From Halorubrum trapanicum (lineage in GTDB: Archaea; Halobacteriota; Halobacteria; Halobacteriales; Haloferacaceae): a stretch of DNA of 64,000 nucleotides. The notes below the pieces were generated by a model. The model was given only the letters and a program-made list of their open reading frames with translations, was not told where the DNA came from and did not search any database. The DNA is taken from positions 62,001-126,000 of the forward strand of contig NZ_JAGGKE010000003.1 in the NCBI RefSeq assembly GCF_017873555.1. Reading direction: 5' to 3'. This document shows, one piece after another, positions 44,487 through 58,754 of this stretch (its first letter is position 1; every line of letters begins with the position of its first letter). Both the position numbers and the translations under genes were made by a program.

Positions 44487-44534
44487 CCCCTGCCTACTTC
44501 GCTCGCCTGACGGTTCGCTTCGTTGAGGCAGGGG
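44487..44534. repeat. Subterminal hairpin at the tnpB end of the IS
   Basis: CCCCTGCCT (44487-44495) pairs perfectly with AGGCAGGGG (44526-44534). The stem overlaps the tnpB stop codon. In this family such a hairpin is the right-end recognition structure, and RNA from this region typically serves as the guide (omega) RNA of TnpB. Confidence 0.85.
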
Positions 44535-45651
44535 CTTCCAAGTCGGCTCGCAAGCGTACCGTTGTAGAGGCTCGGTCAGCACCGCTCGGTTCGAGCACAG
44601 GTTCACAAACTGCGCCGAGACTGGATAGCGGGCACGCGATGTCCTTACCCAGTCCTTTCTTTGCGATGTTCGTCGCACCGTTCTTGTCCGCATTGTCGTC
44701 CAACCCGCACTCATGGCACAGGTGTCGTCCCTGTCCCTTCCGAGTAGTCGTGTCTTGTTCGCCACACCGCCAACACGTTTGACTCGTCATATACTCGTTC
44801 ACGGACTTCACCGCGATACCCGCGAACGTCGCCTTATACCCGATGTAGTTCTTGAGCGTATGGTGTGGCATCGAATGGAGCCGACGATTCATCTCCGCTC
44901 CGAGGTCTTGATTCTGGATTCCTTCGAGGTTCCCGACCACGATGAGCGCGTTGCGCTCTTTAGCTTCCTCCACGATAGCGCGGGAAATCTTGTGGAGGCG
45001 GTCGTTCACTCGGCGATGCTCTTTCGCCCTGACCGACTGGAGCGTGTCGTAGGCTCCCTTCTCTTGTAGACGAGTGCGAAGATTGTGATGGTGACGGCGG
45101 ATACGGCGAATCTCCCGACCGTAGAACTCGGTGTTACGGGAAGGCAACGCCACCGACGTTGCCACCCATCGAATACCGAAATCCACGCCGATAACACCGT
45201 CGTACTCCTCGCTAACTTCCACCTCTTGCCGAACCGTCAGGTGCGCGTAGTAGTCGCCACCCTCTCGAACGATTTTCGAGTCCTTCACGTCGGCCTCGTC
45301 GGGGATCTCATCGTGCGGTTGAATCGGGACGTTCACGCCACCCCAGACCTGTGAGACGGGGAGTTTCAGCCACCAGTCCGTCAGGTCGGTGTCGTGCTGT
45401 TCCACATCCACGCCAACGTCGAACACGTCGTTGCGGATAAACCACGGGTAGTCGTGGTCGTCGCGCAGGTTGTCGGTGTCCACGTAGGCGTCGGCGCATT
45501 GTTTCGTGGCCGAGTAGAGGTCGGCGTCCTCGTCGCCACGAATGTATCGTTGGAACGCTTCGTACTCGTGGTTGATGGCGTCGAGTTTCGACTGCGTAAG
45601 GTCGTCGGTGAGGATTTTCGCCACGACCGTCTTCTCGGCAGTCTGTTTCAT
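44494..45651 (-). CDS. tnpB: TnpB RNA-guided nuclease of IS200/IS605
   Basis: A 385-residue TnpB, ancestor-type of Cas12 nucleases. RuvC catalytic acids lie in GVDFGIRW (Asp), VVGNLEGIQNQ (Glu) and DDNADKNGATNIA (Asp). A zinc ribbon CWRCG...CHECG is between the last two. The N-terminal ~150 residues form the WED/REC-like part (IRGDEDADLYSATKQCADAY). It overlaps tnpA by four bases. It appears full length, so the nuclease may be active, with a guide derived from its own 3' end. Confidence 0.93.
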   Translation of the reverse strand: MKQTAEKTVVAKILTDDLTQSKLDAINHEYEAFQRYIRGDEDADLYSATKQCADAYVDTDNLRDDHDYPWFIRNDVFDVGVDVEQHDTDLTDWWLKLPVSQVWGGVNVPIQPHDEIPDEADVKDSKIVREGGDYYAHLTVRQEVEVSEEYDGVIGVDFGIRWVATSVALPSRNTEFYGREIRRIRRHHHNLRTRLQEKGAYDTLQSVRAKEHRRVNDRLHKISRAIVEEAKERNALIVVGNLEGIQNQDLGAEMNRRLHSMPHHTLKNYIGYKATFAGIAVKSVNEYMTSQTCWRCGEQDTTTRKGQGRHLCHECGLDDNADKNGATNIAKKGLGKDIACPLSSLGAVCEPVLEPSGADRASTTVRLRADLEAPASTKRTVRRAK

Positions 45652-46064
45652 TCGTCGTCACGCTCCCGTTGGGTCTCGACGTATTCTTTCAGTACGTCCA
45701 GCGATACTTGTCCCGTGCTGATGAGGCAGTACGAGTCTGTCCAAAACGAGTCGCCCCACAGTTTGTCCTCGATGTGGTCGGCATATTCGTTGCGGATGCG
45801 TCGAGCAGACGCGCCTTTGAGGACGTTGATGAATTTGGCAAGGTCGGTCGTGGGCGTGGCTTTGAACAGGAGGTGAACGTGGTCGCGGTCGGCTTCGAGG
45901 TTTGTGATTTCGACACCGTAGTTGTCAGCGAACCCACTCACGACCTCGCGGAAGAAATCTCGGAGTTCTTCGTTGAACACCTCGCGTCGGTATTTCACGA
46001 CGAGGACGAGGTGGTAGTGTAGGGAGTATGTCGAGTGCGCTCCCGTATTGAGGTCGTGTTCCAT
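45648..46064 (-). CDS. tnpA: TnpA Y1 transposase of IS200/IS605
   Basis: A 138-residue HUH single-strand transposase. The HUH motif is ADRDHVHLLF, and the catalytic tyrosine lies in the C-terminal helix LKEYVETQRE. The N-terminus STYSLHYHLVLVVKYRREVF is typical. The ATG at 46064 (MEHDLNTGAHSTYSLHYH) is chosen; the longer upstream frame crosses the element's end. The gene looks intact. Confidence 0.93.
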   Translation of the reverse strand: MEHDLNTGAHSTYSLHYHLVLVVKYRREVFNEELRDFFREVVSGFADNYGVEITNLEADRDHVHLLFKATPTTDLAKFINVLKGASARRIRNEYADHIEDKLWGDSFWTDSYCLISTGQVSLDVLKEYVETQRERDDE

Positions 46065-46174
46065 TGGGTTCAATTCTACTATCGGGCTACAGTCATATGA
46101 TTCTTTACTTGGGTTATACGGTTTCTTAGATAGCCTAATTTCGTGTCGGCTGTATCCCCGCCCTACTGCGTCCT

Positions 46175-46221
46175 CAGAACGCGGAGCGTTCTGATGTGCG
46201 AACGAGAGCTTCGCTCTCGTT
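46175..46221. repeat. Pair of perfect hairpins at the tnpA end of the IS
   Basis: CAGAACGC-GGA-GCGTTCTG (46175-46193) and AACGAGAGC-TTC-GCTCTCGTT (46201-46221), with 8- and 9-base stems and 3-base loops. They sit where the left-end recognition hairpin of the element is expected; having two is more than the family minimum. Confidence 0.85.
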
Positions 46222-46316
46222 AACGCTACCCGGTCGCTTGGCTCACTGCGTTGCTCCTTGAAATGAGAACTTAGCCTCGCAAAACTTAAAGGCGCGCCGG
46301 GGATATCCGGTCGTGA

Positions 46317-46389
46317 GGGCGCGTAGCTCAGCGGACAGAGCACTTGGTTCCGGACCAAGATGCCGCGGGTTCAAATCCCGTCGCGCCCG
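46317..46389 (+). tRNA. tRNA-Arg (anticodon CCG)
   Basis: Complete cloverleaf: acceptor GGGCGCG/CGCGCCC, D-stem GCTC/GAGC, anticodon stem CTTGG/CCAAG with loop TTCCGGA (anticodon CCG, reading CGG), T-stem GCGGG/CCCGT with one G-T pair and loop TTCAAAT, discriminator G at 46389. No intron. Its 3' end, from 46377, is duplicated at 49362, so it served as an integration target. Confidence 0.96.
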
Positions 46390-46409
46390 TATCGTTCTAA
46401 TCGCATGAC
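46377..46409. repeat. attL: tRNA 3'-end copy, left boundary of an island
   Basis: A 33-base sequence covering the last 13 bases of the tRNA gene and 20 bases beyond, exactly repeated at 49362-49394. After a short divergent stretch both copies continue with GGGGTAG. Typical attachment site of a tRNA-targeted integrative element. Confidence 0.88.
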
Positions 46410-46873
46410 TCCGGCGGGGTAGACACCGGAATACTCCAAGGCGCGTGCTTTCGTTCGACGAGTGACTGCCCGCGGGTTCAGTGGGATTCACGTACAGCCA
46501 AACTAGACTGGGTAGAGAAAATCAATCGCTGATTGACCTCTCTAAACGGATTTGACTAACGATTACTCAGTACAGTCGGACATGTATTGTAGACCGGCTA
46601 TCCATCGATCAGTGTTGGTTTCTCGCGTTTCTCAGCTGGGACTAGATTAACGCATTTTAGATCTTCACTCTCACAAAGATTGCCGAAAATCAACGTCAGT
46701 CGTAATGGGGTAATCGGCGTCATATGGTCGTATAAGCGCAGCGAGGAACAAACCGCACACGTCGTGGTTTTTTGTACTAGTCTCTGGCGATGGTTGTTTA
46801 AATTCGTTAACCCGCGTGAACACAAACCGAGTTTGATTATCTGGTGTGTCATTAGTTGACGAGAGAACAACCT
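46410..46873. other. AT-rich leader segment of the island, no convincing gene
   Basis: About 460 bases. A 98-codon minus-strand frame exists (46598-46894) but has no family resemblance and overlaps the transposase start. TTTAAATTCG near 46796-46805 may be the promoter of the transposase. The upstream end of the IS66-type element should lie here, but I could not identify terminal inverted repeats by eye. Confidence 0.45.
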
Positions 46874-48286
46874 ATGGCTGACAACAGACAGCAATTTGCT
46901 CTCAGAGAGGATGGCGAAGAAGCCAGTGTTTTCAGAGGAAATACTCCGAGACAGGCGGCATTAAAAGCTGCTCGACGACTTGACCCAGCAAAAACTGAGG
47001 AGGAGGCCATGACAAGTTCGGAGCGAATACGCCTCCGAGAACACGGAACTATCAAGATTCACGTGTATGAGGCGTGGGCCTGGCAGGAGATAACAACTCA
47101 AGATGACCCAGAGTGGCTCGGAGATAGTGTCACAAGAGCTAATGTGGAAAAAGTACGTGTCGAAACCGTCACAAAAGCAGAAGATGAGTTCGAATATAAC
47201 CGTATATCTCCTCTCCTTTCTGACCAGCCAATCAAGATTACACAAGATAAGTGTGATAATTGTGGTAGTTCATTAGAAGGAGGGTTCAAGATAGCTGTCG
47301 GTGTCAGAGATGTACCTGATCCCCCGATTGTTCGACACAGTCGCTACTACTATGAATGTGATAGCTGCGATGAAGAGGTGGTTGCTGAAAAAGAATATCT
47401 CCCTTCGAAGGGCAGATACGGTGCTAATCTCCTTGCCCAAGCTGTTCTCTTCCGGTACGAGTACCGGATTCCGTACCGAAAGGTCTCAAACTTATTTGAA
47501 CAGCTGTACGGCTGTAGCATCAGTGAAGCAGGTGTGCTACAACTCTGTGAACGGATGGCAACTACCGCTCGTTCCGAATATGAGGATATCCAAAAACGGA
47601 TACAGTCTGCTGATGTACTCTTTGCTGATGAAACTCCTCACTTAGTCGATGGGTCAAAAAGTTGGCTGTGGGTATTCACAACCGATAATAGAACCTTTTA
47701 CGCCTTCAGAGATAGTCGTGGGAGCGAAGTTCTGGAAGACGTTCTTGGAGACGCCTTCACTGGTGTGATCGTCTGTGACGGTCATCGCTCATATCCTGCG
47801 TATCACTCGTGGTTACAAAGATGCTGGACTCACCTGCTTCGTGGGACTGATAAACTGTCTGATAATGACACTGAGGCGTGGTCAATCTATAATCGTCTGT
47901 TTGAGATTTTCGAAGGTCTGAAAGCTTTTTTACAGACTGATCCCACACCAGTTCAGCGTCTTGTTGTTCAAAGTAATGCACGTGAAGAACTGAGAAGGTT
48001 GGCGAGGACTGAAGTTCAATCAGAGGACGCTAATGACGTTCTGACGATGCTTGAGAATGGTATCGGACACTGGCTCACGTTCGTCGTTCATCCAGATGTC
48101 GAACCGACGAATAACACGGCTGAGGCTATATTGCGTGAACCAATAGCGATGCGAAGAATAATCCGAACACTCCAAAATCAAAAAGGAATGCGATTGCACG
48201 AGACTTTCCTCTCCCTAATTAAGACTTGGAAACAACAAGGTGCTAATCCCTACACTGAACTCCAACGACTGGCTCGTAATGTATGA
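46874..48286 (+). CDS. MC1 chromosomal-protein domain fused to an IS66-type DDE transposase
   Basis: A 470-residue protein with two parts. Residues ~1-100 match archaeal non-histone chromosomal protein MC1: QFALREDGEEASVFRGNTPR, QAALKAARR, IRLREHGTIKIHVYEAW and DPEWLGD, including the aromatic residues and Arg/Lys face that bend DNA. Residues ~120-470 are an IS66 TnpC-like transposase: zinc knuckles C127/C130 and C162/C165, the HTH-like KVSNLFEQLYGCSISEAGV, and DDE acids Asp252 (FADETPH), Asp302 (VCDGHRSYPAY) and Glu417 (NNTAEAILREP), with RCWTHLLR between. The frame is uninterrupted. No tnpA/tnpB partner, as in ISBst12-type elements. An in-frame start six codons earlier (46856) is possible. 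The MC1 domain presumably supplies end binding or bending. Confidence 0.88.
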   Translation: MADNRQQFALREDGEEASVFRGNTPRQAALKAARRLDPAKTEEEAMTSSERIRLREHGTIKIHVYEAWAWQEITTQDDPEWLGDSVTRANVEKVRVETVTKAEDEFEYNRISPLLSDQPIKITQDKCDNCGSSLEGGFKIAVGVRDVPDPPIVRHSRYYYECDSCDEEVVAEKEYLPSKGRYGANLLAQAVLFRYEYRIPYRKVSNLFEQLYGCSISEAGVLQLCERMATTARSEYEDIQKRIQSADVLFADETPHLVDGSKSWLWVFTTDNRTFYAFRDSRGSEVLEDVLGDAFTGVIVCDGHRSYPAYHSWLQRCWTHLLRGTDKLSDNDTEAWSIYNRLFEIFEGLKAFLQTDPTPVQRLVVQSNAREELRRLARTEVQSEDANDVLTMLENGIGHWLTFVVHPDVEPTNNTAEAILREPIAMRRIIRTLQNQKGMRLHETFLSLIKTWKQQGANPYTELQRLARNV

Positions 48287-48290
48287 GAGT

Positions 48291-48467
48291 TCAGATACTC
48301 AACGGATTCAGTCTTTTTCCTCTGTATTCTGGTTTTGCCTTCTTGAACCCGTCCCGATAGCAGGGCCAACAGAGAAAGCATTCAAAAAGTGAACAGTCGT
48401 AATCAACCGGTTTCAGAGCCGATGTCATCTCGAACTGTCCACAAGCAAGGGCTATTATCTGAGTCAC
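48291..48467 (-). CDS. Possible Cys-rich small protein or gene remnant
   Basis: From a GTG at 48467 the minus strand encodes about 58 residues including ALACGQFEMTSALKPVDYDC and SLFECFLCWPCYRDGFKK, ending NPLSI. The cysteine/aromatic pattern looks protein-like, with possible metal ligands C-x-x-W/C-x-x-C. The frame is open upstream only to a TGA near 48496, without an ATG before FEM. It could be a truncated gene inside the island or chance. It is convergent with the transposase, four bases after its stop. Confidence 0.3.
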   Translation of the reverse strand: MTQIIALACGQFEMTSALKPVDYDCSLFECFLCWPCYRDGFKKAKPEYRGKRLNPLSI

Positions 48468-48565
48468 GGTAATCTCTGAATCCGTCTCCGCGTATCGTCT
48501 GACTCACCGATATGTTCGAGGTGATCTCGTTTTTCGGTCCTGTGACGGGTACGGTACACTTCCGG

Positions 48566-48706
48566 TTATTCGTCTTCGAGAGCGTCGTAGATGTCCCGGT
48601 TCAAATCTCGGTCGTCGGCTGCGACCCGTCGAACCAGTTCCTGGCGGATATCCTCCATCACGTTGTCAAGCGGAGATACTGTTTCCGTCTCTTCCTCGGT
48701 GGCCAT
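48566..48706 (-). CDS. 46-residue partner protein of the Doc-type toxin (candidate antitoxin)
   Basis: Encodes MATEEETETVSPLDNVMEDI followed by RQELVRRVAADDRDLNRDIY and ends DALEDE. A small acidic, helical protein without known domain. It lies 25 bases downstream of doc on the same strand. A second copy of the same pair, with identical spacing, exists at 58462-58712, so the two belong together. Antitoxins more often precede the toxin, so the role is inferred. Confidence 0.6.
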   Translation of the reverse strand: MATEEETETVSPLDNVMEDIRQELVRRVAADDRDLNRDIYDALEDE

Positions 48707-48731
48707 ATCTGAACGGACGCTTCGAAGGCCG

Positions 48732-49220
48732 TTAATCGTTCGGGTCCGATGAATCGCCGGTCAGCCGGTCTAGCCCGTACCGGACGAGTTCGTCTCGCCA
48801 CGCTTCGATCTCACCGGCCAGATCGAGTGCTTCGGTGTGGGATCGGAGATAGTCGGTGGTTTCCTCCTCATCGACGGCCGCTTCGTCGGTGCCGAACGCT
48901 TTCAGTATCGTCCTCACTTCGCTGTCGTACTCGAACCGATACCCGTTGAGGAAGTAGAAGACGACCGTCACGTTGAGTGCAGTTCGTTTGTTCGCATCGA
49001 CGAAGGGGTGGTTAGCGACGAGGAGACGGAGGAGGTGATACGCTTTCTCGTGGATGGTGTTCGGTGTGGAACCGAAACTGCCCTCTTTGATGTAGTTCAA
49101 CGCGAACTCGATGTCACCACGGTTCCGAACACCGGCGGGAGTGTCGGGGTACTCCGCGACGACGTCGTCGTGGATGGTGACGACGTCTTCGACGGACGGG
49201 TACCACAACGAGTCGGCCAT
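48732..49220 (-). CDS. Doc/Fic-type death-on-curing toxin
   Basis: About 162 residues. Fic core HPFVDANKRTALNVTVVFYF matches Hx[FP]x[DE][AG]NKR; in Doc proteins this site phosphorylates EF-Tu-like targets, in Fic it AMPylates. The N-terminal WYPSVEDVVTIHDDVV is Doc-like and supports the ATG at 49220 (MADSLWYPSV). The frame is open further up, through the attR repeat to 49391, which would add 57 residues. It is paired with the 46-residue gene downstream. Confidence 0.88.
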   Translation of the reverse strand: MADSLWYPSVEDVVTIHDDVVAEYPDTPAGVRNRGDIEFALNYIKEGSFGSTPNTIHEKAYHLLRLLVANHPFVDANKRTALNVTVVFYFLNGYRFEYDSEVRTILKAFGTDEAAVDEEETTDYLRSHTEALDLAGEIEAWRDELVRYGLDRLTGDSSDPND

Positions 49221-49361
49221 TTGCTCCAATCTCGATACTACACCAGTGTAGATGTTGCTATGATGAGACGGGAGAGTGATGTCAGAAATCGCTTTTTTCA
49301 GGACGCCGATTTCGACCGTCTCACGCCTGAAAGGTCGATCCGTTCGACAGTCGAACCAGCG

Positions 49362-49394
49362 CCCGTCGCGCCCGTATCGTTCTAATCGCATGAC
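49362..49394. repeat. attR: second copy of the tRNA-Arg 3' end
   Basis: Exact 33-base match to 46377-46409. Only the terminal 13 bases of the tRNA are present, so this copy is not a functional tRNA. It marks the right edge of the island and lies upstream of the SWIM gene. Confidence 0.88.
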
Positions 49395-49502
49395 AGCGAC
49401 GGGGTAGTGACTTCCTTCAGAAAGAGGGCGTTACGATTTGGAACGAAAGCGAAATTCATGTCTCGACTTTTTTTGGACCGCGGCAGAATACTGCTCACAC
49501 CC

Positions 49503-50324
49503 ATGGACGTGACGGAGGGAACAGTTCGAAAGATCTGTACTGACGCGGTTTTCGAACGCGGCGAGCGGTACCTTGCTGAGGACCGCATCCTCGATATTCA
49601 TCGCGTTGATACTACCGTGGCCGCCGTCGTGAGCGGCAGTCGTCAGTACGACGTGCGTGTCGACCTCGAAGCCGATGGGTTCGACCCGTGGTGTGACTGT
49701 CCGTACGACGGACCGGAGGCGTGTAAGCACGTCGTCGCCGTGTTGCTTCGATGTGCCGACGACTGTCCCCCAGACGAGGGCGATCGGCTTGACGCCGCAC
49801 TTGAGGCTGCCGACGCCGACGACCTCCAGAATTTCCTCCGAGAGACGTTGGCGACCGACGCTGCCGTCCGCGACCGCTTTTTCGCCCGGTTCGGCGAGTC
49901 GACGACGCGGTCGGTCGACGATCTGCGCGCGGCGATCGACCGGAAGTTCGAGGAGACGAACCCTGACTACTTCGTCGTCTTTGAGCCGATCGACTTCTCG
50001 GGGTTGTTCGACCTCGCGAGCGAGTATCGCGATCAGGGACGGTACGCGTCGGCGGCGACAGTGTATCGTGCCCTCGTCGAATCGCTCGACGACAACATGG
50101 AGCGCGTCGATGGGGCGTACGACCACTTCTCGCAGGCGTTCACGCGAGCGCTCGACGAGTACGTCGACTGCGTGGCGGCCGGAGATATCGACACTGACGA
50201 GGCCGCCGATGCGGTCGCGTTCCTTGAGGACCGGGCGACATCCGGGTCGCAGTTGCTCAGCGAGCACTTCGAGCGCGCAGCGACGGAGTTAGAGGAGTCG
50301 CTCACTGAACGGCGAGATCAGTAA
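49503..50324 (+). CDS. SWIM zinc-finger protein
   Basis: A 273-residue protein. The SWIM motif CDCPYDGPEACKHVVAVLL (CxCx7CxH) lies at about residues 65-85, preceded by the usual RGERYLAEDRILDIHRVDTTVAAVVSGSRQYDV. The C-terminal 170 residues are helical and acidic. SWIM domains bind zinc and mediate DNA or protein contacts. ATG at 49503 (MDVTEGTVRKICTDAVFERGERY) is chosen; an upstream Met at 49458 adds 15 residues of weaker character. Convergent with the PHP gene. Confidence 0.82.
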   Translation: MDVTEGTVRKICTDAVFERGERYLAEDRILDIHRVDTTVAAVVSGSRQYDVRVDLEADGFDPWCDCPYDGPEACKHVVAVLLRCADDCPPDEGDRLDAALEAADADDLQNFLRETLATDAAVRDRFFARFGESTTRSVDDLRAAIDRKFEETNPDYFVVFEPIDFSGLFDLASEYRDQGRYASAATVYRALVESLDDNMERVDGAYDHFSQAFTRALDEYVDCVAAGDIDTDEAADAVAFLEDRATSGSQLLSEHFERAATELEESLTERRDQ

Positions 50325-50391
50325 CTGGTCGCTTCGAGGGTCACCGCGTTTCATCCGCATAGCGAGCCGCGGGTGTGCCGGACTGGGTAGC

Positions 50392-51180
50392 TCACGGAGA
50401 ACTTTGAGGGTGTCTGTCACGAAGTTCGCTAACAACGGGGGACAGGTCGCGTGTTTCGGTCAGCGTTCGGAGGATGGGCACTCGCTGTGAGAGTTCCGAA
50501 GGCGTGTGACTGTCCGATCCGAGAACGAATTGGATGCCGTATTCGGTGAACAAATCGAGCATCGCTGGGTCAGGATGTACGCGACCAAGTGAGCGATGAA
50601 CACGGCCAGCATTCACTTCGGGAATCGTCTCAGACTCGGTGAGCGCTCGCGCGACCCGGTCGTAGTCCGCTCGGGTAGTGTGTCGTCGTAACGCTGGAAT
50701 TCGTTCCGGAAGATCGAGATGTCCAACCACGTCGAAGAGCTCAGATTCGATGAGCGCAACGACCGCATCATAGTATCGTTCGACGGCGGCTCGACGCTGA
50801 GTTGTCTCTGTAGTCGCGTACTGCGTCGCGCTCGTGTAGTTGTACTTGCCGGCGAAGTGGACGCTCCCGATCGTGTACGCGAAGTCGGCCGTCTCCAGAA
50901 ACGCCGCAATCCGTGATTCGGTCCCCTCCACATAGCTTACCTCGGCAGCATCGTACAGCCGGAGGTCGGTCGAGTCTCTGGCGGCAGTAATATCCTCTCG
51001 GCGCTGTTGATACGTTTCGACCAGATCGTATTTCGCTCGGCGGCCAAAATTGTCGTTGGTCACAATACAGTGATCCGTCAATCCGAGCGCAGTCAAGCCA
51101 GCCTGCTCGGCCGCCGTAATCATCTCATCAAGATCTGCCCCGTCCGAGTACGCTGTGTGCGTGTGGACATCGGTCTGCAT
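50392..51180 (-). CDS. PHP-domain phosphoesterase (histidinol-phosphatase-like)
   Basis: A 262-residue metal-dependent phosphoesterase. PHP motifs: DVHTHTAYSDGADL (HxH), LGLTDHCIV (Asp/His), YDAAEVSYVEG (Glu), VGHLDLPERIP (His), NAGRVHRSLG and FVLGSDSH (DxH). It is the last gene of the block: its start overlaps the ComB-like stop. No his genes are adjacent, so the substrate is probably not histidinol phosphate but something linked to the importer upstream. Confidence 0.85.
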   Translation of the reverse strand: MQTDVHTHTAYSDGADLDEMITAAEQAGLTALGLTDHCIVTNDNFGRRAKYDLVETYQQRREDITAARDSTDLRLYDAAEVSYVEGTESRIAAFLETADFAYTIGSVHFAGKYNYTSATQYATTETTQRRAAVERYYDAVVALIESELFDVVGHLDLPERIPALRRHTTRADYDRVARALTESETIPEVNAGRVHRSLGRVHPDPAMLDLFTEYGIQFVLGSDSHTPSELSQRVPILRTLTETRDLSPVVSELRDRHPQSSP

Positions 51181-51926
51181 CAGTTCGGTGCCTCGTCGCT
51201 GACATCATAGAGTCGCTGCCCATCCAATTTTGGCACGACATTCCGACTGTCAAACGCGAGCGTGTATTCATACAGATCCGTGCGCTTGATCTGTGGTTTC
51301 TCCTCGTACTTTGGTCCCTTCCCGAACTGGACGACTTCCCGGTAGATGTCGCGCTGTTCGGGCGTAAGCGGCTCGTCGTGTAATTGTCGAGCGATATACA
51401 GCGCGCCAACGAGGTCCTCCGGTGACGGTTTGCCTTTCGACCCGGCAGCGACGAAGTACGTCTCACGATCACTGTCTGCGAGGTGGTTGGCCACTGCCTT
51501 CCCGTTTGTTAGGCCGCCGACGTAGATGTCGATGTCGTCACCGCCGGCTAAGCGAAGGTCCGTGACTGCATTCCCACCGTTTGTCGATGTCATCGCTGTC
51601 GGCCGCCCATCAACATCGACGTCTTGAACGAAACTCGGCGAATTGAAGAAGTCGTAGCCCTCCTCACCCTGATAGTTTGGACCGGAACTTCCACCAATTT
51701 TGGCGTCCGGATGGTCAGCCTTGAACGCCGGTTCGTTCCCCCGCTCCTCAGTGATGTAGATGTACGCTGTACCGTTCGCAAACAGTTCCGGGACCGTTGT
51801 TGAGAACTGCGCGACATCGACGACGACATAGTTCCCGGGATCGGGGTCGTCCGGAATCTTCGATCGCCCCAGAATCACCGTCTCCAGCAGCTTCGATTCG
51901 AACGGGTCGCCGGTAACCAAACTCAT
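51180..51926 (-). CDS. ComB-like 2-phosphosulfolactate phosphatase family protein
   Basis: A 248-residue protein. Alignment with ComB is by motif: GNYVVVDVAQFSTTVPELFANG, EGYDFFNSPSFVQDVDVDGR, MTSTNGGNAVTDL and DIDIYVGGLTNGKAVANHLA. ComB hydrolyses 2-phosphosulfolactate in coenzyme M synthesis, a pathway not expected in haloarchaea, so the true substrate is uncertain. The start MSLVTGDPFES at 51926 is preferred over a Met three codons upstream. Overlap with the PHP gene indicates coupling; 115 bases with a TATA-rich palindrome separate it from ecfT. Confidence 0.75.
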   Translation of the reverse strand: MSLVTGDPFESKLLETVILGRSKIPDDPDPGNYVVVDVAQFSTTVPELFANGTAYIYITEERGNEPAFKADHPDAKIGGSSGPNYQGEEGYDFFNSPSFVQDVDVDGRPTAMTSTNGGNAVTDLRLAGGDDIDIYVGGLTNGKAVANHLADSDRETYFVAAGSKGKPSPEDLVGALYIARQLHDEPLTPEQRDIYREVVQFGKGPKYEEKPQIKRTDLYEYTLAFDSRNVVPKLDGQRLYDVSDEAPN

Positions 51927-51965
51927 GTCTTTCAACTCTGACCATCGTCGTAAAAAGACCGCTAA

Positions 51966-52005
51966 GAGTGCTATACACCCGATATACTCGGTATATATCG
52001 CTCAA
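51966..52005 (-). promoter_or_regulatory. Promoter with palindromic operator candidate before the ComB-like gene
   Basis: ATATAC-TCG-GTATAT (51982-51996) is a perfect inverted repeat, next to GTGTATAG (51970-51977, minus strand), which sits at TATA distance from the ComB-like start. The overlap suggests repressor or activator binding over the core promoter. Confidence 0.45.
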
Positions 52006-52041
52006 TAGATCCGCAACTACAGGACCGTCTACTGAAACGCG

Positions 52042-52851
52042 TCAGAGGAAGCGTGCGAGCCCGGCCACGACGAGGAGGGAGCCGACGAAGAACCCGACAT
52101 CGATGGGTCGGAGCTGCATCTCTGCCAATCGAAGCTTTGTGCTCGCCTCGTCATTCAGCGAGTGTGAGAACCCGCGAGCCTCCATCGCCTCGACAGTGAC
52201 GCGACTTCGCTTGGCGACGTTGAATATCATGGGATAGAACGCTCGCATTGAGAGTTTCAGCAGATACGCATAGTGCCGCCAGCGGAACCATCCCGGTGAG
52301 TTAGGGGCTGTACTCCGTAGTCGAAAGGAGTTCACTAAGTCGTGGTATTCTTCGAACAGCACCGGAAGCATCCGGTAGCCGTAGGTGATGAGGAACGTGA
52401 ACTGCCGTGGAATCCCGAGACTTCGAAGCCCTTGGGAGAGGGTCTTCGGACCCATACTTGAGAAGACTGCCAAACTCGACACAGAGATGATCGTCAACTT
52501 CAGCGTGAACGGAACTAGCGCTCGAACTGCCGCGACTGGGTCACCCGTGAAGACGGTCACCACGGCGTACGACGCCAACGTCGATGCGACAGTAAACGCC
52601 ATCAACCCGACGAGAAACAGACTGACGCGTGAAAGTACTGCGAGCACCGACACAAATGCTAAGAGTCCGAGGAGAACTGCTGTGTCGTAGAACAGCCACG
52701 GCACGAACAGGAAGACGACGTACCAGAGCAACAGGACTCTGGGGTCCAAGCGGTGGAGAAACGACCCCTCGTTTTCGTAGGCCGTCCGGAGCAGGTCAGC
52801 CTTAATCGTCTCAACGGACGTCGCATCACGGAGCTTGTCGAGTGCCGGCAT
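52042..52851 (-). CDS. ECF-type transporter T component
   Basis: A 269-residue membrane protein (EcfT/CbiQ family) with about five to six helices. The conserved coupling helices include GFSHSLND after the MEARG motif (ARG box) and the earlier SMGPKTLSQGLRSLGIP. It transmits ATPase motion to the S component. The ATG at 52851 overlaps the ATPase stop by one base; a GTG one codon upstream is possible. Confidence 0.9.
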   Translation of the reverse strand: MPALDKLRDATSVETIKADLLRTAYENEGSFLHRLDPRVLLLWYVVFLFVPWLFYDTAVLLGLLAFVSVLAVLSRVSLFLVGLMAFTVASTLASYAVVTVFTGDPVAAVRALVPFTLKLTIISVSSLAVFSSMGPKTLSQGLRSLGIPRQFTFLITYGYRMLPVLFEEYHDLVNSFRLRSTAPNSPGWFRWRHYAYLLKLSMRAFYPMIFNVAKRSRVTVEAMEARGFSHSLNDEASTKLRLAEMQLRPIDVGFFVGSLLVVAGLARFL

Positions 52852-54596
52852 CACTGCTCTCCCACGATCGGCTTTGTCGTTTCCGTTGCCGACGAACCTG
52901 TGGTACCGAATCGGTTTACGAACGCCTCAACCGTAAGTGGCGCAGGGTCGAGACCGAGTTCCGTCCCCAAACGAACGACCTGCGGTGGGCGAAGATTTGC
53001 TTGTTCGAGCACACCGAGGTCCGCAAACACGTCGCCTGGCGGGCCGTCAGCGATGACCTCACCGCCGTCAAGCACTACCATACGCGTCGCCCATGACGCT
53101 GCGAGTTCAAGGTCGTGGGTTGCAATCACGACCGTCTCGACCCGCTCGCCGGCCCTGTTGATGGTACGACCGACCTCTTCACGGCTTGCGAGGTCGAGAC
53201 TCCCCGTTGGTTCGTCGAGCAAAACGATCGACGGGTTCGTCGCAAGTCCAATTGCCAGCGACGCCCGTCGCTGTTGGCCAACACTGAGCAGTCGGCCATC
53301 CCGCGTCTGTAGGTCTTCCAAGTCGAGAAATTCGATCACGTCGTCGACGCGTTGCTCAACATTCGGGTAGCTTCTGTCAGCGAGATAGTGAGCGACATCA
53401 GCGCGGACACTATCGTCGATGAACATCTCCTCCGGATTCTGCTTGACATAGACCACTTCCTCGGCCAGTTGTTCCGGGAGTACACCTGTAGTGTCTGTTC
53501 CATCCACAGTCACAGTGCCTTCGTCGGGCGTCTCCAAGCCGGTAACCAGTTGTATGAGCGTGGATTTCCCAGCACCGTTGCTGCCGACGAGCACCACCCG
53601 TTCGTCCGGGTACAGGTCTACTGAAAGGTTATCGAGGACATCTTTCGTCCCGCTTCTAAGTGTGTCGTACGAATGCGACACGTTATCGAAGGAGATGACA
53701 GGCTCTCCCGTCGGGTTTGTTTCCGGTGCGCCATCAGTTCGCACCCCACCGTCGACGGAGCGATCGATGAATTGAGCGAGACCGTCCGCGAGTGTCACCG
53801 GTAGCGGGCCATCATCACCGAGGACACGCTCAGCGATTCGCGTGACCTGTGGCGGATGAACGTCCTGAGCTCTGAGGTCTTCTAACTGGTTGAGCGCTGT
53901 CTCCACAGGTAACTTCCAGCTGACAACGCCGTCTTCCACGAGGACCACGCTATCACAGTACTCCGCGATGAACTCCGTCTGATGCTCGATCGTGACGACT
54001 GTCTTCCCGTGGTCTTCGTTGAGGGTGGCGAGACGGTCGTAGGTTTCACGAGCATTGACCGGGTCAAGTTGGGCTGCTGGTTCGTCGACGACGAGGATGT
54101 CTGGATCAAGTGATAATGCTGCTGCCAGCGCAATCAAGTGCTTTTGCCCACCGGAGAGCTCCCAGACGAAACGGTCTTCGAGCCCGTCTAGGTCGAGCAG
54201 ATCTAGTGTACGATGGACGCGTTCGCGGTAGTCCTCGTGTCCGTAGTTCATCGGAGCGAATGCGACTTCCTCGAACACCGTGGGGCTGACGAGCTGGTTG
54301 TCGAATTCCTGAAACACGTAGCCAACGTGCTGGGAGAGTTCCGAGACAGAGCTCTCAGAGACATCATGCCCCGCGACAGTAACCTGTCCTTGCATGTCAC
54401 CCTCGTAAAAATGGGGGATAATCCCATTGAACGCCTTACACAGCGTTGTCTTACCCGAGCCGTTTCCCCCGATAACGGCGACGAACTCGCCTGGCTCAAT
54501 CGCCAGATCTGCGCCGTCCAACACGGCTTCATCAGTCCCAGGATACCGGAACTGTAACTTCTCAACATCGATACGAGAGTTGTGTGTGGCTGTCAT
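52851..54596 (-). CDS. ECF-type transporter ATPase with two fused nucleotide-binding domains
   Basis: A 581-residue fusion of two ABC ATPases. Domain 1: Walker A GGNGSGKTT, Q-loop VGYVFQEFDNQ, signature LSGGQK, Walker B ILVVDEPAAQLD. Domain 2: Walker A GSNGAGKST, Q-loop VYVKQNPEEM, signature degenerate LSVGQQRR, Walker B IVLLDEPTGSLD. This tandem arrangement corresponds to EcfA1-EcfA2 in one chain. Start MTATHNSRIDVEKLQFRYPG at 54596 is four bases after the S-component stop; the frame upstream overlaps that gene. Confidence 0.93.
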   Translation of the reverse strand: MTATHNSRIDVEKLQFRYPGTDEAVLDGADLAIEPGEFVAVIGGNGSGKTTLCKAFNGIIPHFYEGDMQGQVTVAGHDVSESSVSELSQHVGYVFQEFDNQLVSPTVFEEVAFAPMNYGHEDYRERVHRTLDLLDLDGLEDRFVWELSGGQKHLIALAAALSLDPDILVVDEPAAQLDPVNARETYDRLATLNEDHGKTVVTIEHQTEFIAEYCDSVVLVEDGVVSWKLPVETALNQLEDLRAQDVHPPQVTRIAERVLGDDGPLPVTLADGLAQFIDRSVDGGVRTDGAPETNPTGEPVISFDNVSHSYDTLRSGTKDVLDNLSVDLYPDERVVLVGSNGAGKSTLIQLVTGLETPDEGTVTVDGTDTTGVLPEQLAEEVVYVKQNPEEMFIDDSVRADVAHYLADRSYPNVEQRVDDVIEFLDLEDLQTRDGRLLSVGQQRRASLAIGLATNPSIVLLDEPTGSLDLASREEVGRTINRAGERVETVVIATHDLELAASWATRMVVLDGGEVIADGPPGDVFADLGVLEQANLRPPQVVRLGTELGLDPAPLTVEAFVNRFGTTGSSATETTKPIVGEQ

Positions 54597-54600
54597 CGTC

Positions 54601-55455
54601 TCAGGCCGGTTTGGTCGCGCGGTACCAGATGGCGACCGCAACGATGGCGGAAACGACGATCGGGACCGCAATGTAGCTCTGTCCGTACATTGCTAGGAAC
54701 TCCGGCTCCCAAACCACGTTGATCGCCCCACCGACTTCGCTGGCAGCCTCAGCGATGAAGGCGATGGGGAACGCGATGAGCACCGCCGCCAGCGCCTTGA
54801 ACGAGAAGCCACTCAGCATCGACGCTCCACGTTCGCCTTTGAACGGTTCCATGCCGAGCAGCGGTTCAACTTTGCCGTGGAGTTTGGGATAGAGGTACAG
54901 CGCCGGAATCACTCCGAAAATGATGCCGGTGATAAGCATCTGGGTGATGAAGTCGACGCCTTCGAGAACGATGATACTCTCGGGGAGACCGGGCACGGCT
55001 TCTAATTCCTCGACGCCGACGTACACCTTCCCGATGTCGATGAACGTGGCGAAGAGTTCTTCCAGCGCCTCAGCCAGGAACACGACAATTGCCAACTGTG
55101 TGGTGTTTTCCGGATCCTGGAGCAGTTTCGCCGCGAAGTAATAACAGACCGGAATTAGAAGCAGTCCTTCCATCGCTCCCAGTCCGTCGAACTCTCCGAG
55201 CAGTATTTCACCGAACACGATTTCGCCGACTGGGACAGCCAGTGCGGCCCAGTACGTTCTGAAGAGCAGCACCAAGACTATCGGGATGAAGATAAACCCG
55301 CCCACGCCCAGTTCCACCGGGCCGACGGTGAACTCGGGCATAATCTCCGTGAAGGCGTTCTGTAACCCAGTAAGAGACATGACGAGAATGAACACCATCA
55401 TGTCCTGTTTGTCGAACGAGAACAAGTTCTCCGTATCTGCCGACAGTGTGCTCAT
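54601..55455 (-). CDS. Putative ECF transporter substrate-binding (S) component
   Basis: A 284-residue membrane protein with about six to eight hydrophobic segments (for example FILVMSLTGLQNAF, FIFIPIVLVLLF, MLITGIIFGVIPALYLY and FKALAAVLIAFPIAF). Its position as first gene before the double ATPase and T gene identifies it as the probable substrate-capturing subunit. It is larger than usual S components (~180-220) and I do not recognise a vitamin-specific subfamily. ATG at 55455 is chosen because upstream codons contain the AT-rich promoter. Confidence 0.7.
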   Translation of the reverse strand: MSTLSADTENLFSFDKQDMMVFILVMSLTGLQNAFTEIMPEFTVGPVELGVGGFIFIPIVLVLLFRTYWAALAVPVGEIVFGEILLGEFDGLGAMEGLLLIPVCYYFAAKLLQDPENTTQLAIVVFLAEALEELFATFIDIGKVYVGVEELEAVPGLPESIIVLEGVDFITQMLITGIIFGVIPALYLYPKLHGKVEPLLGMEPFKGERGASMLSGFSFKALAAVLIAFPIAFIAEAASEVGGAINVVWEPEFLAMYGQSYIAVPIVVSAIVAVAIWYRATKPA

Positions 55456-55697
55456 ACTACACCGGAACGCATACTGGACACCTATTTGAATGATTATAAT
55501 ATTTCTACTTATTGATATGAAACATCCACGGCAGCATATATGACTATATATCAATTATCTGTCTCTATTGACCTCCTCTTCTTTAGATCTATTTTTGACT
55601 GAAATTGTGGGTCGCTGATTGATCACAGAGGGGATCGAGTTTTCTTTACAAAAAACGCGACTGGGAGTGGACGATTGAAGTAGGGATTCGCCGTCAC
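55456..55697. other. AT-rich intergenic region upstream of the ECF operon
   Basis: Contains several TATA-like stretches (about 55490-55500, and 55536-55555 with ATATATGACTATATATC) that could serve as ECF operon promoter elements. No gene is evident. It borders the decayed mobile-element zone that follows. Confidence 0.5.
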
Positions 55698-55762
55698 TTG
55701 GCTGGTATGTCGCTTCGTGAAGTAAGTAAACCTCTCGAAAGCTTTGGGGTCGATCGGAGCCA
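55698..55762 (+). pseudogene. IS6-like transposase remnant
   Basis: Encodes MAGMSLREVSKPLESFGVDR then SH, resembling the helix-turn-helix start of haloarchaeal IS6-family transposases, then loses similarity at the first copy of a 24-base repeat. The DDE domain is missing. Confidence 0.5.
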
Positions 55763-55852
55763 CGGACCCTTGTGGGGTCGAAGCCGAAAGCGCGGCCGCA
55801 TCCAAGTCGGCGCGACCATGTGTTTCAGACGGACCCTTGTGGGGTCGAAGCC
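55762..55852. repeat. 24-base direct repeat inside the degenerate zone
   Basis: The sequence at 55762-55785 (begins ACGGACCCTTGTGGGGTCG) recurs exactly at 55829-55852, 67 bases later. Each copy contains the palindromic GACCCTTGTGGGGTC. It may be a trace of repeated insertion or a small mobile repeat. Confidence 0.85.
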
Positions 55853-56151
55853 TCTACGGCGCCGATGTCGACAGCGCTCGGATCGACATCCAGTGGAGCG
55901 ACCAGGAGATGTATTCGTTTCACTACGTCGATGCCAACGATGTCAACTAGCGATTCGATCGCCACCCCAATACACACTCACCCGAGAGTCATTTCCACCC
56001 TCCACCTGACGCCGCGACGACGGCCACCGAACCATCCTGTATCGATGTGACCGAGGTGTCACTCGTGACGCGTGCCGTCCATGCGATGTGGCGAGCAGCG
56101 TACGAGAATGAGGATTTAGATCGATTGAACAGCGCATCACATCCACCGTGA
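55853..56151 (+). pseudogene. Haloarchaeal gene interrupted by an in-frame TAG
   Basis: One frame reads YGADVDSARIDIQWSDQEMY then SFHYVDANDVN, a TAG at 55948-55950, and continues in the same frame with RFDRHPNTHSPESHFHPPPD, EPSCIDVTEVSLVTRAVHAM and YENEDLDRLNSASHPP to a TGA at 56149-56151. Protein-like sequence on both sides of the stop implies a single ancestral gene of about 100 residues or more. The 5' part was replaced by the repeat zone. No function known. Confidence 0.65.
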
Positions 56152-56359
56152 CCTCGAGTCGATTTACAAGTATGCTAGTTCGTTGCGAAGCAGATCCAAA
56201 GTCGACGGGGCCAGATTGAACGACCGTGTGTCTTATCTACACGCCACCTGGCTACGAGATACACCAACATTCAACATATCCGTCTGGGAGCCTGACTAAG
56301 CGTAGATGCGGTCCGATCCACGACCCGCTCTGCGACGACTCGACAGGCAACTACTCCCC

Positions 56360-56970
56360 ATGGACCTCACAGAACCCCAAATCAGAGAGTACGACCGTCG
56401 TGCGATAGAGAGAAACGAGACCGAGACGGCGACGTTCGGACTCGGGTGCTTCTGGGGTCCAGATGCGCGGTTCGGCGCCATCGACGGCGTGGTCCGCACT
56501 CGCGTGGGTACGCTGGCGGCACGACACGCGACCCAACGTATCACTCCTTAGGAGATCACACCGAAGTGTTCCAAGTCGAGTTCGATCCCGACACTATCAC
56601 GTACCGGGATCTGCTGAACCTGGTCTTTGAGTCGCACACCCCACACCATCAGACCAGAAACACGCAGTGCCAAAATGTCGTCCTCACGGCGACAGGAGCC
56701 CAGCAAGCGACCCTCGAAGAGTTCCTTCTCTCACAGGGCTTTACAGCCGATGGCATCGGCACACGTATCGAACAGCTCTCGCGGTTCTCCCCGGCGGAAG
56801 ACTACCATCACAAGTACAAGCTCCGGGCCGTCTCCTCGCTCATGGACGCGTTCGACGCGGCGGACTACGACGACGAAGCACTGCGTGGGTCGCTGATCAC
56901 CGCCACGCTGAACGGCTACGCCGCCGGACACGATGTCGCGCTGGTCGAAGAGCCCTCGGCGTCTGGGTAA
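56360..56970 (+). pseudogene. msrA: Peptide methionine sulfoxide reductase A, frameshifted
   Basis: MsrA repairs oxidised methionine. The first frame gives MDLTEPQIREYDRRAIERNE and TATFGLGCFWGPDARFGAID (catalytic Cys in GCFW) up to VVRTRVG. One base is missing near 56506-56512, and the second frame resumes with YAGGTTRDPTYHSLGDHTEV and continues to the normal end ALVEEPSASG. Both halves align with the family without further gaps. Either a recent null mutation or a sequencing error. Confidence 0.85.
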
Positions 56971-57051
56971 GCCCGCTGGTTCTCGATTTGCGTGGGGTAC
57001 CTGCTGTCCACAGATGCCACAGCCTTTCCGTGTGGCACGTCTCGTGTTCGT

Positions 57052-57522
57052 ATGTCGATAGCTACTGGCGATTCTGTGACGCTTGAGTACACTGGCAAAC
57101 TAGACGATGGGACCGTGTTCGACACCTCCAAGGAGTCAGTCGCCGAGGAAGCCGGCCTCGCCGAAGCGCAGCCCGACCGCGAGTATACACCGCTGACGGT
57201 CGAAATCGGTGGCGGACAAGTGATCGAGGGGATGGAGGAAGGGCTACTCGGATTGGAAGCTGGCGAGACAGAGACGCTGACCATCCCGCCGGAGAAGGCC
57301 TACGGGCAGCCCAGCGAGGAGAATATTGAGGAGTTTGAGACTGATGAGCTCCGAGAGATGCTCGGTGGACAGCTCCCCGAGGAGGGAGCCTATCTCGAGG
57401 CCCAAGACGGCAGCCAAGGCGAAATCATCCACGTCGACGAGGACGTCATCCGCGCGGATTTCAACCCGCCGCTCGCCGGGGAGACGCTGACGTTCGACGT
57501 CGAAATCATCGAGACCAACTAA
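57052..57522 (+). CDS. FKBP-type peptidyl-prolyl isomerase (SlyD-like)
   Basis: A 156-residue cytoplasmic foldase. FKBP core: VTLEYTGKLDDGTVFDTSKE, TVEIGGGQVIEGMEEGLLGLEAGETETLTIPPEKAYG, and an inserted IF domain (EENIEEFETDELREMLGGQLPEEG). It catalyses prolyl isomerisation and acts as a chaperone. Start MSIATGDSVTLEY at 57052. Its stop overlaps the convergent permease gene by four bases. Confidence 0.93.
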   Translation: MSIATGDSVTLEYTGKLDDGTVFDTSKESVAEEAGLAEAQPDREYTPLTVEIGGGQVIEGMEEGLLGLEAGETETLTIPPEKAYGQPSEENIEEFETDELREMLGGQLPEEGAYLEAQDGSQGEIIHVDEDVIRADFNPPLAGETLTFDVEIIETN

Positions 57523-58409
57523 GTCCCACGTAGCGCCCGCCACTTCGCGGCGACGAACCCCGCGAGGATGAACACGAATCCGACGACAGTTGCGGGCGTC
57601 ACTTCCTGCCCGAGCACGAGCCAGCCCGCCAGCGCCGCGAACACGGGAATCACGTACTCGATGAAGCTCACCTCGATGGGACCGAGATCCTCGAGGAGCG
57701 TGAAGTACAGCAGGAAGCCGCCGACGCCGGCGACCGCGGAGAGGTACGCGAGTGCGCCGAGCGCGGACGGCGTCCACGTGGCGGTCGCGAACGACTGGCC
57801 AGGGAGGACGAGCACGGCGGCGTGAAGGACGACCGCGCCGACGGCCATCATCCACGCCTGCGTGGAGAGGAACGGCATCGACGGCGAGCGGCTGTGGGTG
57901 ACGACCGCGGCGACGGCGAACGCGAGCGCGGCGGCGAGCACGAGCGCGACACCGAAGACGCTGTCCGCGAGGTTTGCCGGGTCGGGGTTGGCGATGATGA
58001 CAACGCCGACGAACCCAAGGGAGACGCCGAGCGCGGTGGCGGCGGTGAACTCCTCGTCGGTGGCGACGAGCCGCGTGAGCGCGGGGGTCACCACCGGGAC
58101 GAGACCCAACAGCACCGCGGCGACGCCGCCCGTGACGTACTGCTGGCCGGCGAAGAGAAACGCGTGATGGGCGCCGATGATGAGCGCGCCACCGACGAGC
58201 ACGTAGACGTAGTCATCCCGAGTCCGGGGGCGGATGTCCACGCCGGCGACGAGCACGGCGGCGAACAGCAGTCCGGCAGCGACGTCAAAGCGCACGGCGG
58301 CGAACGGGACCGCGGGGAGGTCCACGAGACCGACGTCCGTCGCCATGAACGCCGTCCCCCAAACTGCACACAACAACACAAAGCGGCCGGCCGTCCGGGA
58401 GCGACTCAT
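57519..58409 (-). CDS. EamA/DMT-superfamily permease 1
   Basis: A 296-residue transporter with ten predicted membrane helices in two EamA repeats (first repeat includes GGALIIGAHHAFLFAGQQYVTGGVAAVLLGLVPVV; second AYLSAVAGVGGFLLYFTLLEDLGPIEVSFIEYVIPVFAALAGWLVLGQE). Such DMT proteins usually export amino acids or metabolites. Start MSRSRTAGRFVLLCAVWGTAF at 58409; the longer frame overlaps the decayed Doc-partner copy and is rejected. It is paralogous to the permease at 58755. Confidence 0.9.
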   Translation of the reverse strand: MSRSRTAGRFVLLCAVWGTAFMATDVGLVDLPAVPFAAVRFDVAAGLLFAAVLVAGVDIRPRTRDDYVYVLVGGALIIGAHHAFLFAGQQYVTGGVAAVLLGLVPVVTPALTRLVATDEEFTAATALGVSLGFVGVVIIANPDPANLADSVFGVALVLAAALAFAVAAVVTHSRSPSMPFLSTQAWMMAVGAVVLHAAVLVLPGQSFATATWTPSALGALAYLSAVAGVGGFLLYFTLLEDLGPIEVSFIEYVIPVFAALAGWLVLGQEVTPATVVGFVFILAGFVAAKWRALRGT

Positions 58410-58461
58410 CCACGCGGAGGTCGCCGCCAACGACGAAAGGTGCTTCGAACCGCTTTCGCGA

Positions 58462-58599
58462 TTCGTCTTCGAGAGCGTCGTAGATGTCTCGGTTCGCATC
58501 GCGGTCGTCCGCCGCGACCCGCCGAACCAGTTCCCGCCGGGTGTCCTCCATCACGTTGTCAAGCGGGGAGGTCGTTTCTGCGCCTTCTTCGGTAGCCAT
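58462..58599 (-). pseudogene. Second copy of the Doc partner gene, stop lost
   Basis: Encodes MATEEGAETTSPLDNVMEDT and continues RRELVRRVAADDRDANRDIY...DALEDE, about 85% identical to the 46-residue protein at 48566-48706. Homology ends exactly at DALEDE; the stop codon is absent and the frame runs into unrelated sequence before permease 1. Spacing to the doc remnant is the same as in the intact copy. Confidence 0.8.
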
Positions 58600-58624
58600 G
58601 CCTGAACGGACGCTTCGCAGGCCG

Positions 58625-58712
58625 TTAATCGTTCGAGTCCGTCGAATCGCCGGTCAACTGGTCGACCCCGTACCGGACGACCCCGGCGGGAGTGTCGGGG
58701 TACTCGCGCCGA
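58625..58712 (-). pseudogene. Doc toxin remnant with a large internal deletion
   Basis: The frame reads EYPDTPAGVVRYGVDQLTGD then STDSND. EYPDTPAGV matches residues near the N-terminus of the intact Doc and RYGVDQLTGDS matches its extreme C-terminus; the ~120 residues with the Fic core are deleted. ACCGG-type microhomology at the junction suggests a slip or recombination event. Confidence 0.82.
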
Positions 58713-58754
58713 CGTCGTCTTCGTGTAGCTGTTGCCATCGATGAGAGAAACCGG

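Follow-up and report, generated by a model that had tools for sequence, protein, structure and literature searches.

Along the minus strand of the 64-kb window (the whole stretch of DNA that was analysed), genes for an S component, a fused double ATPase, a T component, a ComB-like protein and a PHP-domain protein follow one another in this order (Table 1). The locus raises the question of what an ECF-type importer so composed would bring into the cell, and whether the phosphoesterase-type genes beside it serve the same compound. The labels of the existing genome annotation ('hypothetical protein', '2-phosphosulfolactate phosphatase' and 'PHP domain-containing protein') place neither importer nor enzymes in a pathway when taken alone, and no description of this gene set was found in the parts of the literature covered (PMC7733943, PMC8305020, PMC9258230 and PMC11109136 among them).

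Table 1. Operon genes, intergenic gap and genomic island, with coordinates within the 64-kb window
Feature	Position	Strand	Basis
S component (substrate-binding membrane protein), 284 aa	54601..55455	-	resembles ECF S-component fold in AlphaFold2 model; no family match
Fused double ECF ATPase (A and A'), 581 aa	52851..54596	-	ECF_ATPase_1 and _2; motifs
T component (CbiQ/EcfT family), 269 aa	52042..52851	-	PF02361; EARG motif
ComB-like protein, 248 aa, PF04029 superfamily, altered motifs	51180..51926	-	Pfam; motif table
PHP-domain phosphoesterase, HisJ-like, 262 aa	50392..51180	-	PF02811; closest solved chain 2yxo
Gap between T and ComB-like genes, 115 nt	51927..52041	-	coordinates; putative second promoter
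Genomic island carrying the operon, ~12.4 kb, behind tRNA-Arg(CCG)	46397..58750		comparison with G272; low GC

The operon and its genomic island

The S and ATPase genes are 4 nt apart, and 1-nt overlaps join the ATPase to the T gene and the ComB-like to the PHP gene. Such close packing is what one would expect of two neighboring units, one made up of S-A-T and the other of ComB-like-PHP, with 115 nt between them, and the coordinates bear out the five-gene order with overlapping genes given in the preliminary description. A second promoter probably lies in the gap, because of the gap itself, a TATA-like sequence that recurs upstream of ComB-like genes, and the occurrence of stand-alone ComB-like genes elsewhere. 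An EM search over 79 upstream sequences returned a TATATA-centred palindrome at both S and ComB-like promoters, but the within-genome control was weak: with the divergent loci L041, L042 and L058 left out, 34 genomes were compared, and only in 3 of them (L038, L050 and L055, the word in L055 not being the palindrome) was the longest word common to both promoters longer than in every one of 20 shuffles, with a mean length of 8.65 vs. 8.03 in shuffles. Co-regulation of the S and ComB-like genes through a common motif is therefore not claimed.

About 300 bp upstream of the S gene, at 55755-55851, two CRISPR-type repeats surround a 37-nt spacer. The repeat at 55822-55851 is a full match to Rfam CRISPR-DR24, the other lacks its 5' part, and the repeat core occurs in two copies only in the genome, counting up to 3 mismatches. 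In CreA-type antitoxin RNAs a spacer-like sequence targets a promoter; the spacer gave no match as an RNA of this type directed at the operon promoter, and the repeats were set aside as a remnant.

The operon has been horizontally transferred and lies on an island. Among the 24 genomes of the genus searched, G272 holds the left and right flank genes (93 and 86% identity, respectively) only 273 bp apart, this interval contains the same tRNA-Arg(CCG), and according to BLAST the island replaces ~140 bp of G272. No S gene appeared in other genomes of the genus among the matches listed; the nearest S (92%) is encoded on plasmid pSTJ001 of Halobacterium hubeiense, and further copies are also plasmid-borne. 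Beside the tRNA-Arg where the island is inserted, IS200/IS605-type TnpA and TnpB genes occupy 44494-46358, and the island itself also harbors a single reading frame in which an MC1 chromosomal-protein domain is fused with an IS66-type transposase domain (46856-48286), as well as a Fic/DOC-family gene (48732-49391).

Components of the importer and of the enzyme module

The earlier proposal of an ECF-type importer agrees with all three components, as ATPase and T score above curated family cut-offs and the S model resembles an S-component fold. The ATPase exceeded the cut-offs of NCBIfam ECF_ATPase_1 (TIGR04520; 362 vs. 315 bits) and ECF_ATPase_2 (TIGR04521; 343.4 vs. 330 bits) on two stretches of the protein, which indicates two ECF-type ATPase domains, and each half bears a full set of Walker A, Walker B and signature motifs. 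The T component is above the cut-off of Pfam CbiQ (PF02361; 54.5 vs. 25 bits), below that of the cobalt-specific TIGR02454 (26.1 vs. 111.8 bits), and possesses an EARG motif.

The S component matched no Pfam or NCBIfam family at E ≤ 0.1, known vitamin-specific S families included, so that its identification as a known vitamin family, which would have counted against the preliminary description, did not come about; nor did a 16-row profile match any PDB sequence at E ≤ 10. An AlphaFold2 model built from 16 relatives reached moderate confidence (pLDDT 70.9, pTM 0.71) and gave no Foldseek match at E ≤ 0.001. With VIA-align the top nine rows were all ECF S components (RibU, FolT, ThiT, PanT and others; Z 8.5-11.5, rmsd 3.2-5.1, 157-189 residues aligned), and although helical bundles easily reach middling Z values, this top list is uniform; the rows below it, one Lnt chain at Z 8.2 and then 5.8 and lower, were disregarded. 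Since the alignment extends at most to about residue 209, the modeled protein resembles a six-helix ECF S-component fold of ~200 residues followed by ~80 extra C-terminal residues, in which two further helices are predicted. This extension would explain the large size noted earlier, 284 residues vs. ~163-207 in the solved S components that it resembles. Across 42 haloarchaeal and two bacterial rows the invariant charged residues are E37, D140, E165 and E197, with K143 and K195 invariant in at least 43 of the 44. The closest parallel in layout is offered by YkoEDC-type systems, ECF importers of the thiamine/HMP type with a fused double ATPase: there too S, fused A-A' and T stand in one operon as a dedicated rather than shared module, whereas the S component of the window is without Pfam or NCBIfam family, bears the ~80 additional residues and is linked to phosphoesterase-type genes.

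The name 'ComB-like' holds at the superfamily level but not as a ComB equivalog. The protein is above the cut-off of Pfam 2-ph_phosp (PF04029; 77.4 vs. 26.4 bits) and far below all NCBIfam equivalog cut-offs, those of the TIGR00298 and PRK00886 set included (best score 47.8 vs. 235 bits; TIGR00298 45.3 vs. 175.05). In a motif table of 69 proteins, with canonical ComB motifs taken from those two of the three solved matches that had printed alignments, the ECF-linked proteins mostly retained GYDFFNSP, TSxNGG and the late D, whereas the Arg of DxLRAT was replaced by Gln, His or others and the Glu of GGER by Ser, Gly or others, giving DxxQFSTT or DVTHFSTT-like and GGSS/GGGS-like sequences. They thus share the superfamily and the NSP and TNG motifs with the 2-phosphosulfolactate phosphatase ComB (1vr0, 2yyv), and differ from it in score and in both replaced residues. 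Judging from these motifs, they may possibly not be phosphatases.

In the case of the 'PHP-type phosphatase', membership in the PHP family stood (PF02811; 61.2 vs. 26.4 bits), while equivalence to histidinol phosphatase did not, and PHP proved to be only one of three interchangeable partner families. Like the HisJ-type histidinol phosphatases (2yxo, 4gc3), of which 2yxo is the closest solved chain, the protein has the PHP fold family and a full set of residues of metal-ligand type, nine of which (H6, H8, D13, H37, E80, H108, H154, D223 and H225) are invariant in the 22-row linked set. Unlike them, it falls just below the hisJ_fam cut-off (TIGR01856; 87.9 vs. 90.2 bits) and well under that of PRK07328 (120.7 vs. 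202), and at sister loci other families take its place. A role in histidine biosynthesis was rejected, as the candidate that a review names for the histidinol phosphatase of haloarchaea is a HAD protein (PMC8305020).

Linkage and exchange of partner families

Of 392 genomes of the order, 40 carry an S gene, and they represent 18 of 95 genera. Named relatives are also present in Haloarcula, Natrinema, Halovivax, Natrialba and others, and the surroundings of all these S genes were read. Elsewhere in the phylum none was found, either among 294 genomes with the 16-row profile or among 392 with a wider 14-row profile; both draws included genomes of the order, from which all matches came (4 and 9 genomes, respectively), so that fewer genomes than these totals lie outside it. 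Counting one locus per genome and neighbors within 7.5 kb of S, a ComB-like gene accompanies 35 of the 40 loci. Of the five loci without it, that of G007 runs into a contig end, and the ComB-like gene lies on a different contig, 218 bp from its end. The ComB-like gene stands downstream on the same strand (21 loci), upstream on the same strand (6), downstream on the opposite strand (5) or upstream on the opposite strand (3), and because of these four arrangements a single inherited operon does not explain the linkage. Exactly one of three unrelated phosphoesterase-type families, and never two kinds, occurs at all 40 S loci: PHP at 22 (one gene, in G244 at L060, being a remnant), an endonuclease-IV/CbiR-like TIM barrel at 14 and the inositol-monophosphatase (IMPase) family at 4, an arrangement that is not due to chance. 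The association of phosphatases with the importer, on which the preliminary description had made its reading depend, is thus found across the order, in the sense of phosphoesterase-type folds, to which each partner belongs; phosphatase activity of the partners is presumptive. A maximum-likelihood tree of 44 S proteins, built quickly, with weak support for several inner branches and with long end branches in places, requires at least 7 changes of partner label. The count leaves out Halegenticoccus L044, a locus outside the 40 that has a ComB-like gene and none of the three partner families.

The TIM-barrel partner (PF01261) shares with CbiR and endonuclease IV the AP endonuclease 2 superfamily, and its nine ligand positions of endonuclease-IV type are invariant in 14 of 14 proteins. 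CbiR is its best NCBIfam match, at 70.5 bits (next best 45.7); the partner stays below the cut-off of 105 and has the uncharacterised MJ1311 (3wqo) as its closest solved chain. Among the annotated members of the recurrent neighbor clusters, no cobamide gene was recognised. The IMPase-family partner (PF00459) carries the DPxDG and WDxA motifs shared with HisN and inositol monophosphatases, and differs in that the partners score below all equivalog cut-offs (164.1 bits at L043 and 119.6 at L059, vs. 275.15 for HisN) and that copies of a second type vary at the motif Thr; a family member that adjoins a ComB-like gene at L107, where there is no S, reaches 142 bits against the same cut-off. Within the 40 S loci, IMPase-family genes are confined to the 4 that have neither PHP nor TIM barrel, all of them also devoid of ComB-like genes, and are found at 0 of the 36 others; two such genes are present at L043 and at L056 (Halopiger xanaduensis plasmid pHALXA01, where S, A and T are accompanied by two adjacent copies), and a single one at the other two loci.

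ComB-family genes also occur without the importer, with or without PHP or TIM barrel: 40 of the 77 genomes matching the ComB-like family (P0004), distant matches down to 27% identity included, have no S match. In genus g84, ComB-like and PHP genes stand alone in one genome and as S-A-T-ComB-PHP in another, in both cases after the same SufU-like gene, and this, together with similar cases elsewhere, indicates that the enzymes also function where this importer is absent, and can part from it. In five genomes of genus g55 (L106-L109 and L123; established by gene order, with Pfam run on L109), at loci without S-A-T, the immediate neighbors of the ComB-like gene encode a phosphate ABC transporter, PhoU and an AbrB-domain protein; the ComB-like frame is interrupted in L123. 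At six further loci from four genera (L122, L125, L126, L128, L129 and L131) a distant ComB-family gene accompanies an APH-type phosphotransferase gene, possibly as a kinase/phosphatase pair, and near importer-less ComB-like genes at L104, L110, L115 and L118 there are one or two paralogous genes of ~250 aa, whose products appear ATP-grasp-like by eye; those of them that were compared with Pfam or NCBIfam gave no match.

Plasmid searches retrieved bacterial relatives of S from Streptomyces cavourensis (43% identity) and Niallia taxi (45%). The Streptomyces locus comprises a LacI-family gene, a gene whose 540-residue product combines two HAD hydrolase domains, and S, A and T, and in Niallia a divergent RpiR-like gene is followed by S, A, T and a PHP gene. 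LacI and RpiR regulators usually respond to sugars or sugar phosphates, and their presence beside both bacterial importers suggests that the compound may be carbohydrate-like; this hint at the type of cargo comes solely from the two regulators, the Niallia match being weak (helix-turn-helix 27.9 vs. a Pfam cut-off of 28.3 bits; SIS 16.7 vs. 25). No riboswitch was found beside the S genes of these relatives; near the Niallia importer, two guanidine-I riboswitches on the minus strand (L142:17054-17153 and 24123-24228) apparently belong to other genes.

Possible function of the system

Conserved linkage despite differing enzyme families suggests a nutrient-salvage system that has gone unrecognised. 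The explanation that we favor, and regard as evenly poised between right and wrong, is that an ECF-type importer takes up some small, polar and perhaps carbohydrate-like compound, and that the phosphatases work on this cargo or on its phosphate ester. The S component would capture the compound and dock on T, whereupon the double ATPase would hydrolyse ATP and so bring the compound into the cell. There a cytosolic phosphoesterase module, mostly of two enzymes (ComB-like and PHP in the window), would strip phosphate from the imported compound or its phosphorylated form, yielding a usable core and phosphate. Across lineages the importer would be kept and the enzymes replaced (PHP by the TIM barrel, the pair by two IMPase-family proteins, and a tandem-HAD protein in Streptomyces), because unrelated folds can do the chemistry. 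Gene content, the fold of S, the linkage, the exchange of partners and horizontal transfer form the observed part of this account; transport and its direction, the nature of the cargo and catalysis form its presumed part. Against this explanation speak the loss of Arg and Glu in ComB-like proteins, the ComB-family genes without importer, L044 without a partner, the single IMPase at two loci, the moderate confidence of the S model, and a sugar hint that derives from two bacterial loci with a weak match in one. Nor does any riboswitch or pathway gene point to the cargo, the guanidine-I riboswitches adjoining other genes. A bolder version can be put forward only tentatively: a new ECF class, present in haloarchaea, Bacillota and Actinomycetota alike, with an S component for a phosphorylated or carbohydrate-like cargo and with at least four unrelated sets of dephosphorylating enzymes that have replaced one another. 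To our knowledge, such a cargo has been reported for no ECF importer.

Known ECF substrates are mostly vitamins, and the importer might instead take up an unphosphorylated micronutrient precursor, the phosphatases having a separate task such as the clean-up of misphosphorylated forms or late steps of the same cofactor. The persistence of ComB-like genes with PHP or TIM barrel, and no S-A-T, in several genera is consistent with such separate roles, as are the mainly acidic invariant residues of S, which, with few basic ones (the nearly invariant K143 and K195), do not suggest a phosphate-binding pocket. We nevertheless consider this unlikely, since the presence of a partner at every one of the 40 loci, together with the repeated replacements, argues that enzymes and importer serve one flux. 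Even looser is the view of the phosphatases as unrelated passengers, for which the mobile island and a possible promoter of their own for the ComB-like and PHP genes could be invoked; it is scarcely credible, being already contradicted by the full linkage over 18 genera, in four arrangements and with at least seven partner swaps.

Two further alternatives are phosphorus scavenging and cobamide salvage. Import of an organic phosphate from which phosphatases free phosphate for the cell draws on the phosphate transporter and PhoU genes beside the ComB-like gene of g55; those loci, however, are without S-A-T and their synteny is confined to one genus, the clustered recurrent neighbors of S included no recognised Pst genes, and ECF importers usually serve trace nutrients, all of which makes phosphorus scavenging distinctly improbable. 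Salvage of cobamides (the vitamin B12 family), in which S would import a corrinoid whose nucleotide loop would then be cut by the TIM barrel or the PHP protein as by CbiR, is suggested by CbiR, a cobamide-remodelling phosphodiesterase, being the best TIM-barrel match, and by CbrT, a known ECF transporter of cobalamin. It seems very doubtful to us, as we know of no inositol monophosphatase or HAD family that performs this cleavage, and the CbiR score is below its curated cut-off. Moreover, the CbiR clade was defined by position beside cobamide genes (PMC7733943), none of which were recognised among the annotated recurrent neighbors here.

Returning to a common role of importer and phosphatases, what annotation labels alone do not provide is provided by the pattern of partner swaps, which joins these genes in a single system and brings tests of the cargo within reach in a few strains that can be cultured. 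Should the cargo prove to be a phosphate ester of sugar or polyol type, the range of compounds handled by ECF importers would be widened, and the family would show how, in nature, phosphatases of unrelated families can occupy the same position next to an importer that is itself conserved.
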